A stretch of DNA of 64,000 nt. Origin: Calothrix sp. PCC 7507. GTDB taxonomy: Bacteria; Cyanobacteriota; Cyanobacteriia; Cyanobacteriales; Nostocaceae. The notes below the pieces were generated by a model. The model saw nothing but the letters and a program-made list of their open reading frames with translations. It did not search any database and had not been told where the DNA came from. This document shows, piece after piece, positions 8,325 to 11,887 of the stretch (position 1 is its first letter; each line of letters begins with the position of its first letter). A program made the translations under genes and the position numbers. The stretch spans positions 4,958,001 to 5,022,000 of the forward strand of contig NC_019682.1 in the NCBI RefSeq assembly GCF_000316575.1, written 5' to 3'.

Positions 8325-8843
8325 GTGACGAGCGCGATGCAAGTGTTAGAGCAATCCGTGGTGGTATTTTCTCAAAATTACTTACCATTGTGTCGGGTGA
8401 ATATTAAGCGGGCGATTGTGCTGTTGGTAAGCAATAAGGCTGAACCATTAGGTTTTTCCACAGCAGGTGGATGGCGAGTTCACTCACCTAGCTTGGTACT
8501 TGACGTACCAAAACATATTCGCTTGACAATAACTTCTGGTGAGCGGATGTGGAAAGTTCCACCTGTAAATCGGCGGGAAGTGTTGCGAAGAGATCATAAC
8601 AGTTGCCAATATTGCGGTAGTAACAAACGTCTGACGCTAGATCATGTGATTCCTCGTTCTCAAGGGGGGCCACACACGTGGAATAACGTAGTCACAGCTT
8701 GTGAAAGATGTAACTCCCATAAAAGTAACCGCACCCCATTTGAAGCGGGTATGCAACTACGTACCAAGCCAAAAGCGCCAGTCCATCCGACGGTTTCTTT
8801 TGCTGAACAATTTTGGATAAATGTGCAAGCAAACCTGGAATAA
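8325..8843 (+). CDS. HNH endonuclease family protein
   Basis: A 172-aa protein beginning at GTG, with an AAGGAG ribosome-binding site 8 bp upstream. The C-terminal half carries the HNH core with zinc-binding cysteines: CQYCG, LTLDHVIPRSQGG, NNVVTACERCNSHK. The N-terminal ~80 residues are the family-specific extension common in cyanobacterial and actinobacterial stand-alone HNH proteins. It presumably cuts or nicks nucleic acid, but its biological target is unknown and there is no phage or intron context. A gene of unknown function follows after 16 bp, probably in the same transcript. Confidence 0.9.
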   Translation: MTSAMQVLEQSVVVFSQNYLPLCRVNIKRAIVLLVSNKAEPLGFSTAGGWRVHSPSLVLDVPKHIRLTITSGERMWKVPPVNRREVLRRDHNSCQYCGSNKRLTLDHVIPRSQGGPHTWNNVVTACERCNSHKSNRTPFEAGMQLRTKPKAPVHPTVSFAEQFWINVQANLE

Positions 8844-10294: not shown

Positions 10295-10324
10295 TTGACA
10301 CTTTTTGTAGTATTTGTGTAGTAT
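10295..10324 (+). promoter_or_regulatory. Putative sigma-70-type promoter of the tRNA array
   Basis: A perfect -35 TTGACA (10295-10300) and a -10 TAGTAT (10319-10324) with 18-bp spacing. It is the only good promoter I see upstream of the nine tRNAs and would give a leader of about 340 nt. Confidence 0.5.
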
Positions 10325-10667
10325 AAATGTAATGAAGCAAGAGACAAAGCTTCTCAAGGGTTAAAAGCCATGTTCTACATCCAAGTAGTGGATAAACGCT
10401 AGAATCAGCCAGAGTCCTCATTAAACAAAAGCACTTCCTGCTGCTAAACCATCTGTATTAGAGGCACAGCAAGAAAAAAATAAGTTTTTCAAGACAAAAA
10501 TTACCGATTATATCCGTAATACACAAAATGTTTATTACTTAGAACGTCGGTTGTTTTCCTAATAGTTAATAGTAATTTTTCTGAACCTTGAAAACTAAAT
10601 AATAAATGAGCAATTTCAGCAATAATCTGTGTATAAAAACCTAAAATTCAACACAGATATCAAATTT
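10325..10667. other. Leader region before the tRNA array
   Basis: About 340 AT-rich bases with no intact gene. A short open stretch ending near 10561 (reading ...YYLERRLFS) lacks a start codon and may be a gene remnant. No tRNA-like cloverleaf was found here. Confidence 0.4.
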
Positions 10668-10748
10668 GGGTCGGCTCGCCTATTGGTGTGGGCAGCGCTC
10701 TGTAAAAGCGTCCTTTCCTGGTTGCAGATTCAAATTCTGCCCGACCCA
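10668..10748 (+). tRNA. tRNA-Tyr (anticodon GTA), array member 1
   Basis: Acceptor GGGTCGG pairs with CCGACCC, discriminator A. Anticodon arm GCGCT-CTGTAAA-AGCGT gives anticodon GTA. The variable region is about 12 nt, shorter than in normal class II tyrosine tRNAs. T arm GCAGA-TTCAAAT-TCTGC is perfect. Confidence 0.88.
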
Positions 10749-10752
10749 TTGC

Positions 10753-10839
10753 GGAGAGGTGGCTGAGTGGCTTAAAGCGTCCTCCTGCTAAGGGGAAACG
10801 GTTTAACACCCGTCGAGGGTTCAAATCCCTCTCTCTCCA
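10753..10839 (+). tRNA. tRNA-Ser (anticodon GCT), array member 2
   Basis: An 87-nt class II tRNA. Acceptor GGAGAGG with TCTCTCC (one G-T), anticodon loop CTGCTAA (GCT), a long variable arm, and T arm GAGGG-TTCAAAT-CCCTC. It starts only 4 nt after tRNA-Tyr. Confidence 0.92.
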
Positions 10840-10845
10840 TTTTAT

Positions 10846-10920
10846 CCTCCGGTAGCTCAGTTGGTAGTTAGCGCCTGCCTGAAAAGCAGGAGGTCGTCGG
10901 TTCGATTCCGACCTGGGGGG
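10846..10920 (+). tRNA. tRNA-Phe (anticodon GAA), array member 3
   Basis: Acceptor CCTCCGG with CTGGGGG (two G-T pairs), discriminator G, anticodon arm CCTGC-CTGAAAA-GCAGG (GAA), T arm GTCGG-TTCGATT-CCGAC. The D arm has an irregular loop (GTAGTTAGC). The divergent acceptor and G discriminator are unusual for tRNA-Phe, as is common in tRNA arrays. Confidence 0.85.
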
Positions 10921-10925
10921 CTGTT

Positions 10926-10955
10926 GCCTTGTAGCTCAATGGTAGAGCGATCGCA
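10926..10955 (+). pseudogene. 5' fragment of a tRNA gene
   Basis: The bases GCCTTGT followed by a perfect D arm (AGCTC-AATGGTA-GAGC) match the 5' third of a tRNA, then run into a HIP1 octamer (GCGATCGC). No matching anticodon arm, T arm or 3' acceptor follows before the next tRNA. It is probably a decayed array member. Confidence 0.6.
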
Positions 10956-10978
10956 TGGAGTCACTTTTTCAACGATAT

Positions 10979-11052
10979 GCCCTTGTAGCCCAACTGGAAG
11001 AGGCGCTTTGCTTAGAACAAAGAGGTTACTGGTTCAAGTCCAGTCAGGGGTA
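10979..11052 (+). tRNA. tRNA with Leu anticodon (TAG) but short variable loop, array member 4
   Basis: Acceptor GCCCTTG with CAGGGGT, discriminator A; anticodon arm CTTTG-CTTAGAA-CAAAG reads TAG, which decodes CUA; T arm ACTGG-TTCAAGT-CCAGT. The variable loop is only about 5 nt. Genuine bacterial leucine tRNAs are class II with a long variable arm, so charging by leucyl-tRNA synthetase is doubtful. The cloverleaf itself is sound. Confidence 0.75.
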
Positions 11053-11062
11053 TTTGGTGATT

Positions 11063-11136
11063 TGCGGGGATGAAGCAAGAGCGGCTTGGAGGTCTCATAA
11101 GCCTCACATCAGCAGGTGCAACTCCTGCCCCCGTCA
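11063..11136 (+). tRNA. tRNA-Met-like (anticodon CAT), array member 5
   Basis: Anticodon arm GAGGT-CTCATAA-GCCTC gives CAT; T arm GCAGG-TGCAACT-CCTGC; D stem AAGC/GCTT. The acceptor TGCGGGG with CCCCGTC has one mismatch at the first pair. The T loop begins TGC instead of TTC. With CAT it could be elongator Met or Ile2 (lysidine-modified); the sequence does not decide. Confidence 0.75.
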
Positions 11137-11142
11137 CCTGAG

Positions 11143-11241
11143 GGTGTCTGTTGGCGTAGCCGCTCCTCTGGAGCTAGCCAAAGCGGACGCGGCACTGGTT
11201 TGTGGAACCAGTCATAACGGATTTAAGTCCCGTCAGACACC
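11143..11241 (+). tRNA. tRNA-His (anticodon GTG) carrying a 24-nt insertion, array member 6
   Basis: Acceptor GTGTCTG with CAGACAC, plus the His-specific extra pair G-1 (11143) with C73 (11241). The anticodon arm CTGGT-TTGTGGA-ACCAG reads GTG. T arm ACGGA-TTTAAGT-CCCGT has one mismatch. Between position 8/9 and the D arm (GCC...GGC) there are 24 extra nucleotides (11151-11174) that belong to no tRNA. Removing them restores a standard 75-nt tRNA-His. Unless the insertion is tolerated or removed, this gene should be non-functional. Confidence 0.85.
11151..11174 (+). repeat. 24-nt palindromic mini-insertion in tRNA-His
   Basis: The inserted bases contain a hairpin core GCTCC-TCT-GGAGC, and the left end TTGGC can pair with the adjoining D-arm bases GCCAA. 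The size and palindromic form match the class of very small dispersed repeats (about 21-27 nt) known in heterocystous cyanobacteria. The exact edges could shift by one base. Confidence 0.7.
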
Positions 11242-11248
11242 TCTGAAT

Positions 11249-11331
11249 GGAAGATGCTGCTCAAGGGAGGGCAACTAGTCTTGAAAACTAGAGCAGGGTA
11301 ACACCTGGGGGTTCAATTCCTCCATCTTCCG
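11249..11331 (+). tRNA. tRNA-Ser (anticodon TGA), array member 7
   Basis: Class II tRNA: acceptor GGAAGAT with ATCTTCC, discriminator G, anticodon arm CTAGT-CTTGAAA-ACTAG (TGA), long variable arm (GCAGGGTAACACCTG), T loop TTCAATT with one G-T in the stem. The distance to tRNA-His is 7 nt. Confidence 0.9.
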
Positions 11332-11335
11332 TTAT

Positions 11336-11407
11336 CCACCTGAAGCCGAGAAGCGAGGCACTGTGCTGATAACACAGACATAGGAGGGGCAGTACCTCCC
11401 TGGTGGA
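11336..11407 (+). tRNA. tRNA-Ile (anticodon GAT), divergent, array member 8
   Basis: Acceptor CCACCTG with CTGGTGG (one T-T mismatch), discriminator A, anticodon arm CTGTG-CTGATAA-CACAG (GAT), D stem GCC/GGC. The T loop is GGCAGTA instead of the near-invariant TTCRANY, so folding or function may be weakened. Confidence 0.75.
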
Positions 11408-11432
11408 CTGATATCTCGATTTTTAAATTTAT

Positions 11433-11504
11433 GGGTGATTGGCATAGCGGCTGTGCAGCGGGCTTTTAATCCGCACTAGAGAGGTTCAACTCCTCTATCA
11501 CCCA
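11433..11504 (+). tRNA. tRNA-Lys (anticodon TTT), array member 9
   Basis: Acceptor GGGTGAT with ATCACCC, discriminator A, anticodon arm GCGGG-CTTTTAA-TCCGC (TTT), T arm AGAGG-TTCAACT-CCTCT. It is the last array member, separated by 25 nt from tRNA-Ile. Confidence 0.92.
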
Positions 11505-11887
11505 CTGTTTTTCTCTGTAGGTTAACTGGCTGGTGTAGTGTGAACTTTCAGTTATAATCAAAGCTTAATTGCTCTGATAACGGTAGTTAATGTGAACTTT
11601 TAAAGAATAAATATCAAGTGTTAAAGATTATGCCCTTGATCTATCTAGAGAATGATTTTATGAAAGAACAAAATAGAAAAAACTTCATTCTCTAGGACGA
11701 TTCACAGGTCATTAAATTCCCAGTAAAAATAGGTTACACAAGCCTTGAATGAAGAGGCGAGCATTAATAAAACCTCATGCTATTACTAAATTCCGAATAT
11801 GGCATTAGCTAATTAGTGTTCATGACTCAATCAATGCAGAAGTGCAAGGATTGTTTATTCTTCATAGGTTTATTGATTACGAGCTTA
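11505..11887. other. Gap after the tRNA array, with an inverted repeat
   Basis: No gene is supported. An 11-bp perfect inverted repeat (CTAGAGAATGA at 11645-11655 and TCATTCTCTAG at 11685-11695) encloses 29 AT-rich bases. It may be the terminator region of the array or a small RNA. A TATAAT box occurs near 11553. Confidence 0.4.

Follow-up and report, generated by a model that had tools for sequence, protein, structure and literature searches.

tRNA genes are among the least insertion-tolerant of genes. The closest described relatives of the insertion reported here are the small dispersed repeats SDR4, SDR5 and SDR6 of Nostoc, which are 21-27 nt long; SDR5 occurs only inside HIP1 (GCGATCGC). 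These repeats, the subject of Elhai et al. 2008, are said to share a two-hairpin shape, placement in HIP1 and dispersed copies. Short inserts within tRNA genes have been described as introns: in the available parts of one account, a 22-nt 'group I intron' occupies nt 39-60 of tRNA-Arg(ACG) in Nostoc PCC 7524, and a short one is also given for tRNA-Gly(TCC) of Nostoc PCC 7107 (PMC5733544).

The host locus has a described counterpart as well. The trn operon of Anabaena PCC 7120 is reported to comprise 26 tRNA genes and to be silent until translational stress. TrcR represses it at TGTAGTAT, and with it rtcB and an HNH gene; in a trcR mutant rtcB is de-repressed together with the operon (PMC10272220). 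Here we describe a tRNA-His gene interrupted by a 24-nt repeat in a 64,000-nt stretch of Calothrix sp. PCC 7507 (NC_019682.1, positions 4,958,001 to 5,022,000). We refer to this whole stretch as the window and number its positions from its first letter.

An accessory tRNA array in the window

The array lies on the plus strand at 10667-11505. Direct reading together with ARAGORN gives the gene order Tyr, Ser, Phe, Leu, Met-like, His, Ser, Ile-like and Lys. ARAGORN called seven tRNAs in the window, including the Tyr, Ser, Phe, Leu, Ser and Lys genes of the array; the tRNA-His gene at 11143-11241, between Leu and the second Ser, was not among them, and Rfam at its gathering score reported no tRNA there. 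The Met-like and Ile-like genes (11065-11137 and 11335-11407) have odd T arms and were not called by ARAGORN, nor was an Asn-like 5' remnant at 10922-10977, which contains a HIP1 octamer at 10947. The genome (G000; 7.02 Mb, one contig) holds a second, longer array at G000:C1:5193021-5195523.

Upstream of the first array, two copies of TGTAGTAT, published as the sequence that TrcR binds at the promoter of the trn operon, span 10306-10324 on the plus strand and begin at 10306 and 10317. The window contains six such sites where 2.0 are expected, a count reached in 3 of 100 shuffles. By its sequence, then, the locus has the arrangement of a trn operon, with dense co-directional tRNA genes behind a predicted TrcR-type promoter. 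It shares the dense array, the redundant isoacceptors and the TGTAGTAT promoter sites with the Anabaena PCC 7120 operon (PMC10272220). That operon is on a megaplasmid; Calothrix has two arrays, both on the only contig of its genome, and the one in the window is short and holds several odd genes.

An ORF resembling an HNH endonuclease is also present in the window, at 8325-8843. Of 108 array loci, many of which end too close to the array to show one, 28 have a relative upstream in the orientation of the array; in 18 of these 28 the distance to the first called tRNA is about 220-252 bp.

The tRNA-His gene and its insert

The sequence-only reading had recognized a tRNA-His gene here, and direct reading of the 99 nt bears it out. 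The gene consists of GGTGTCTG, 24 inserted nucleotides, and a remainder running from TAGCC to CAGACACC. Positions 11143-11150 pair with 11234-11241 to form the acceptor stem, which includes G-1:C73; the GTG anticodon stands at 11202-11204, so that both tRNA-His identity features are present. On the 3' side of the insert, TAGCC leads into the D loop and GGC, after which come the anticodon stem, all of its pairs intact, the T arm and CAGACACC.

Comparison with 77 insert-free sequences defines the empty site as GTCTG^AAGCC and the insert, TTGGCGTAGCCGCTCCTCTGGAGC on the plus strand, as a net gain of 24 nt. It sits at the 8/9 junction, with the edge ambiguous by one base (11151-11174 or 11152-11175); insert-free genes mostly have A8 A9. 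It contains two small hairpins, and both appear in a cloverleaf-constrained fold. Hairpin 1, GGC-GTA-GCC (11153-11161), reads CGC-GTA-GCG in copies borne by HIP1, and hairpin 2, GCTCC-TCT-GGAGC (11162-11174), has its outer G-C replaced by T-A in two genomes (G059, G162). Both thus vary pairwise, GGC/GCC against CGC/GCG and GCTCC/GGAGC against TCTCC/GGAGA, as judged by eye and with no statistics.

The 27-mer occurs a single time in the window at up to three mismatches (0 in 100 shuffles), and the core has no second copy in its own genome at up to three mismatches. Nine places there match the looser pattern GGCGTAGCCGCTCC-N4-GGAGC at two to three mismatches, with a loop one base longer than that of the window insert and four bases free; the reversed control gave none. 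Among 192 genomes of the same family (Nostocaceae), 11 match the 22-mer core at up to two mismatches: Calothrix itself, G005, which matches exactly and twice, and nine others with two mismatches. These ten genomes besides its own uphold the expectation that the 24-mer has relatives elsewhere in the Nostocales. In G048, G050 and G069 the relative CGCGTAGCGGCTCCTCTGGAGC sits outside tRNA, between the halves of a HIP1 octamer (GCGAT...ATCGC), and in G057 and at a second place in G048 relatives of the element occupy HIP1-like sites. Those of G059 and G162 have hairpin 2 altered to TCTCC-GGAGA, and G010 has a relative present three times at 144-base spacing in an apparent repeated coding stretch. 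A single chance palindrome is ruled out by the empty site together with these relatives.

The insert resembles the SDR4/5/6 repeats, in the features generally ascribed to them, in its size (net 24 nt), its two-hairpin structure with compensatory changes (by eye) and its relatives in HIP1, and may do so in dispersal, if the nine looser matches in its genome count as copies. It differs from SDR5 in the strict sense: the window copy lies at CTG^AA of a tRNA gene, within GTCTG^AAGCC, and because it is not in HIP1 we file it, on its sequence features, as SDR-like rather than as SDR5.

We rejected a group I intron, which has a catalytic core of about 200 nt or more and its usual place in the anticodon loop, for an insert of 24 nt at the 8/9 junction in a window with no Rfam intron match. 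The tRNA-Arg(ACG) gene of another array locus (L178) carries a net 21-nt SDR-like insert, TTCGCGTAGCGTGGCGTAGCC. No group I intron is known to be as short as some 22 nt, and an SDR reading fits the Nostoc 'introns' better, which suggests that the short 'group I introns' of cyanobacterial tRNA genes are repeats. The L178 insert and the Nostoc PCC 7524 tRNA-Arg(ACG) 'intron', as the available parts of that account present it, are probably the same phenomenon; inserts in tRNA-His are absent from those parts (PMC5733544). A search of titles and abstracts, covering few subscription journals, returned no paper on small repeats in tRNA genes except that one, and nothing on SDR insertions in tRNA-His or T loops.

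Insertions at the same site in other tRNA-His genes

The His-Ser stretch has matches in 89 of the 192 genomes, and loci were drawn from part of those matches. From 113 loci, some overlapping, we obtained 83 distinct array tRNA-His sequences. A further 25 searched loci had no tRNA-His, 19 of them having been retrieved on account of the repeat rather than an array; the array loci with no His match are six (L130, L164, L166, L177, L178 and L179). One sequence with an inverted anticodon arm (L145) was omitted from the comparison and the tree, leaving 82. This L145 gene (G099, minus strand) carries, as read by eye, a different 24-mer at the 8/9 site, and its anticodon arm reads as if reverse-complemented, a change that would alter the anticodon.

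At the 8/9 site 77 of the 82 sequences have no insert and mostly read GTCTG-A-AGCC. They include that of a genome of the same genus (L047) and that of the second Calothrix array, which lacks an insert at 8/9 but has a different one of about 25 nt in its T loop. The view that 24 foreign, hairpin-bearing nucleotides separate position 8 from the D stem is thereby confirmed, and the bases are not common to all homologous array genes. The insert recurs at the same site of tRNA-His in three other genomes, as the exact core at two loci of G005 and as two-mismatch forms in G127 and G174; in G085 a longer variant occupies the site. The proposal of a mobile-looking element inside a tRNA therefore stands as regards a small repeat but not as regards a one-off, since exact copies occupy the same place in the same gene of G005.

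On the His tree of 82 sequences, the five insert-bearing ones need 4 changes, at least 3 of them forced by well-supported branches. When the label was shuffled, the average rose to 4.9 changes, and 29 of 500 shuffles were as compact as the insert label. The insert at this site therefore probably arose more than once in the family. Because the tree is short (76 columns) and its forks are mostly weak, independent hits on one target and a single old insertion spread by recombination are both possible; we lean towards repeated insertion rather than recombination. The flank TGTCTG^AAG is also found at related-repeat inserts in the anticodon loop of array tRNA-Phe, and CTG^AA or CCG^AA at inserts in Arg-acg. 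These flanks suggest that the element may prefer the target CTG^AA, common to tRNA-His and the anticodon loop of array tRNA-Phe.

Condition of the split tRNA-His gene

The T arm of the window gene (11217-11233) has two lesions: A53 (11221) stands opposite C61 (11229), and T (11224) replaces C56. The universal G53:C61 and C56 of functional tRNA-His are thus absent; the acceptor, D and anticodon stems are still fully paired. The change from C56 to T also occurs in four insert-free sequences (L070, L108, L118, L163).

Counting as a lesion any broken stem pair or lost universal residue, we found lesions in 4 of 5 sequences with the 8/9 insert (mean 1.6) and in 17 of 70 that have no insert at all (mean 0.43; Mann-Whitney p 0.0026, relatedness ignored). 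Two or more lesions occur in 3 of 5 and 7 of 70, respectively (Fisher p 0.015, again ignoring relatedness and with only five insert-bearing sequences, two of which also have a T-loop insert). For this comparison T-loop inserts were replaced by T at position 55 and not counted as lesions, and L145, L147 and L152 were left out.

On these features the window gene is probably failing, impaired or dead. The search for a second, intact tRNA-His that had been suggested was successful: the same genome has an intact housekeeping gene (L035). Because of this gene the array copy would be redundant, and hence presumably tolerated.

Inserts in array tRNA genes across the family

An insert in a tRNA gene is not the isolated rarity that had been supposed, as many array tRNAs carry other inserts. 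In 108 array loci, with 1888 ARAGORN calls and 2037 intact-like genes by homology, a blast scan gave 206 candidates and an alignment scan 212 tRNA genes split by 14-95 nt. A strict filter (84% identity, gain of 15%) dropped 64 of the latter and is blind within about 11 bases of either gene end, and so misses the His 8/9 site. It left 148 split genes in 73 of the 108 loci (for example L002, L155 and L172), which are not independent, as the array loci of one genome can be near copies (G005, G189). As a weak control, 45 ARAGORN tRNAs at 42 other loci of the Calothrix genome with a call measure 72-94 nt; these loci were picked by good Rfam score (150 of 454 candidates scored), so that split tRNAs could be missed.

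The T loop accounts for 10% of insertion points and for 113 of the 148 inserts as placed; the anticodon loop has 17, the variable loop 9, and 9 are elsewhere, including stems, with placements in tied ranges ambiguous and a few variable-loop or D-loop assignments doubtful. T-loop inserts affect genes of 29 isoacceptor labels; with every tied placement counted, the genes number 117, in 64 loci. These inserts often take the form GGT[ACCC...CTA or GAA]CAA, and some are nested; several repeat families are represented among the split genes.

Other unusual genes were seen as well. At seven loci (L105, L113, L115, L119, L129, L142, L144) tRNA-Glu CTC has a 45-79-nt structured insert adjoining the anticodon; unlike in SDRs, its ends are conserved (ACGGCAGTCGCTACAAC...GCTGCCT) around a middle that varies. 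In two genomes tRNA-Thr TGT (L143, L150) has a 47-48-nt hairpin insert at the D stem, on its 3' side. ARAGORN labelled as 'Pyl' the tRNA genes with a CTA anticodon at L044 and in eight calls in array loci; these are possible amber-reading tRNAs. Locus L187 of the Calothrix genome (G000:C1:5421300-5422700, minus strand) holds clustered tRNA-like genes whose anticodon region contains a conserved insert (about TTGCCTGAAAAGGCCGACGAATTAGGGTTATCG); the cluster lies directly before an ORF that by eye resembles a Ro60/TROVE protein. We take these genes to be, probably, tRNA-mimicking Y RNAs; two of them carry T-loop repeats of the SDR kind.

Base pairing in the split genes

With the insert left out, 99 of the 148 split genes retain all the stem pairs present in their closest insert-free reference. 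Lost pairs per gene were compared at equal divergence with intact genes and with chance placement of the same changes. At 0-3% divergence split genes have lost 0.18 pairs (n=49), intact genes 0.08 (n=1344) and random placement about 0.6; at 3-6% the values are 0.25 (n=55), 0.33 (n=289) and 1.50; at 6-10%, 0.71 (n=28), 0.56 (n=163) and about 2.4; and at 10-20%, 3.56 (n=16), 0.68 (n=73) and about 4.1. Over all divergences the figures are 0.68 for split and 0.19 for intact genes. Much of the divergence of split genes may predate their inserts.

Among T-loop split genes less than 10% diverged, G18 and G19 have each changed once in 105 and C56 and A58 not at all in 106; position 53 is altered in 10 of the 106, and position 55 in 97. 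Because T55 is not recovered, removal of the insert could not restore the exact T loop in most of them. In 56 pairs of like genes with the same insert, which are not independent, 88 stem pairs have changed: a one-sided change left 38 of them paired, two-sided changes left another 23 paired, and 27 are broken. The same repeat can enter twice, which bears on pairs sharing an insert.

The pattern fits genes that would have been hit recently while under selection, together with some older, decayed ones, and is compatible with function. The idea that whole arrays are dead finds no support: insert-free genes in insert-rich arrays are paired as well as those in insert-free arrays, the loss per gene being 0.185 pairs in the 7 arrays that have at least 4 strict inserts and 0.244 in 35 arrays with none.

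Discussion

We conclude, with a probability of about 0.7, that a HIP1-associated, two-hairpin SDR-like repeat was inserted at an apparently preferred site in a redundant, probably impaired or dead array tRNA-His gene. A repeat of about 24 nt has entered between the acceptor stem and the D stem of a redundant tRNA-His belonging to a stress-type accessory array, and a preference for CTG^AA would have caused the His 8/9 site to be struck more than once in the family. The insert would then enter the transcript as two hairpins, with no removal expected, and the damaged copy would be tolerated, the housekeeping tRNA-His covering its function.

Three outcomes had been offered by the sequence-only reading, and a dead or dying gene is the best supported, by the excess of lesions; an extra helix and removal by processing stay beside it as lesser candidates. 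Two hairpins projecting from the 8/9 junction of a still-working tRNA-His would agree with an insertion site in a junction and not a stem, with intact acceptor, D and anticodon stems, and with a constrained fold in which the window gene forms the cloverleaf and both insert hairpins only 1.0 kcal/mol above the predicted minimum, where the insert pairs with the D arm. Such a molecule is nonetheless unlikely: the window copy has lost G53:C61 and C56, the 8/9-insert class as a whole shows excess lesions, and the cloverleaf lies 3.4 kcal/mol above the minimum in the G127 gene and 10.2 kcal/mol above it in that of G005, in which three anticodon-stem pairs cannot form. That the 24 nt are an original part of this type of tRNA-His, lost elsewhere, is disfavoured and the least credible of the readings. 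The same insert is found in four genomes, Calothrix included, but 77 of 82 sequences spread over the His tree do without it and related elements exist outside tRNAs.

The insert might also be excised from the precursor RNA, with RtcB as one candidate for joining the two halves; its gene is co-regulated with the trn operon in Anabaena PCC 7120 (PMC10272220). Also in favour of this, at 3-6% divergence split array tRNAs have lost 0.25 pairs against 0.33 in intact genes and 1.50 by chance, and T-loop split genes keep G18, G19, C56 and A58. However, with all divergences pooled split genes have lost more pairs than intact ones (0.68 against 0.19, and 0.18 against 0.08 at 0-3%), they are decayed at 10-20% (3.56, n=16, against 0.68, n=73), and their divergence may largely predate the insertions. 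Removal from the T loop would leave a base other than T at position 55 in 97 of 106 genes, taking the earliest tied placement, and we know of no bacterial endonuclease for such hairpins. Processing is accordingly improbable for the window gene. We are just as sceptical of its general form, in which loop and junction inserts of array tRNAs would be mini-introns: these mobile hairpins, about 19-27 nt long, would be excised from the stress-induced transcript of the array and their flanks rejoined by co-regulated RtcB; if true, repeats would persist inside tRNA genes without killing them.

The insertion in the window gene is real and well supported; the element is of a known kind, its location is unusual, and the gene that it interrupts is probably failing. 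On its own the case is moderately interesting; the inserts at fixed loop positions throughout the family are more so. Accessory arrays seem to be places where very small repeats keep landing at fixed positions in tRNA loops, chiefly the T loop. They raise the question of how repeats of twenty-odd bases, without genes of their own, pick their sites and, with two thirds of the split genes keeping all their stem pairs, whether insert-bearing, stress-induced tRNAs are ever matured.
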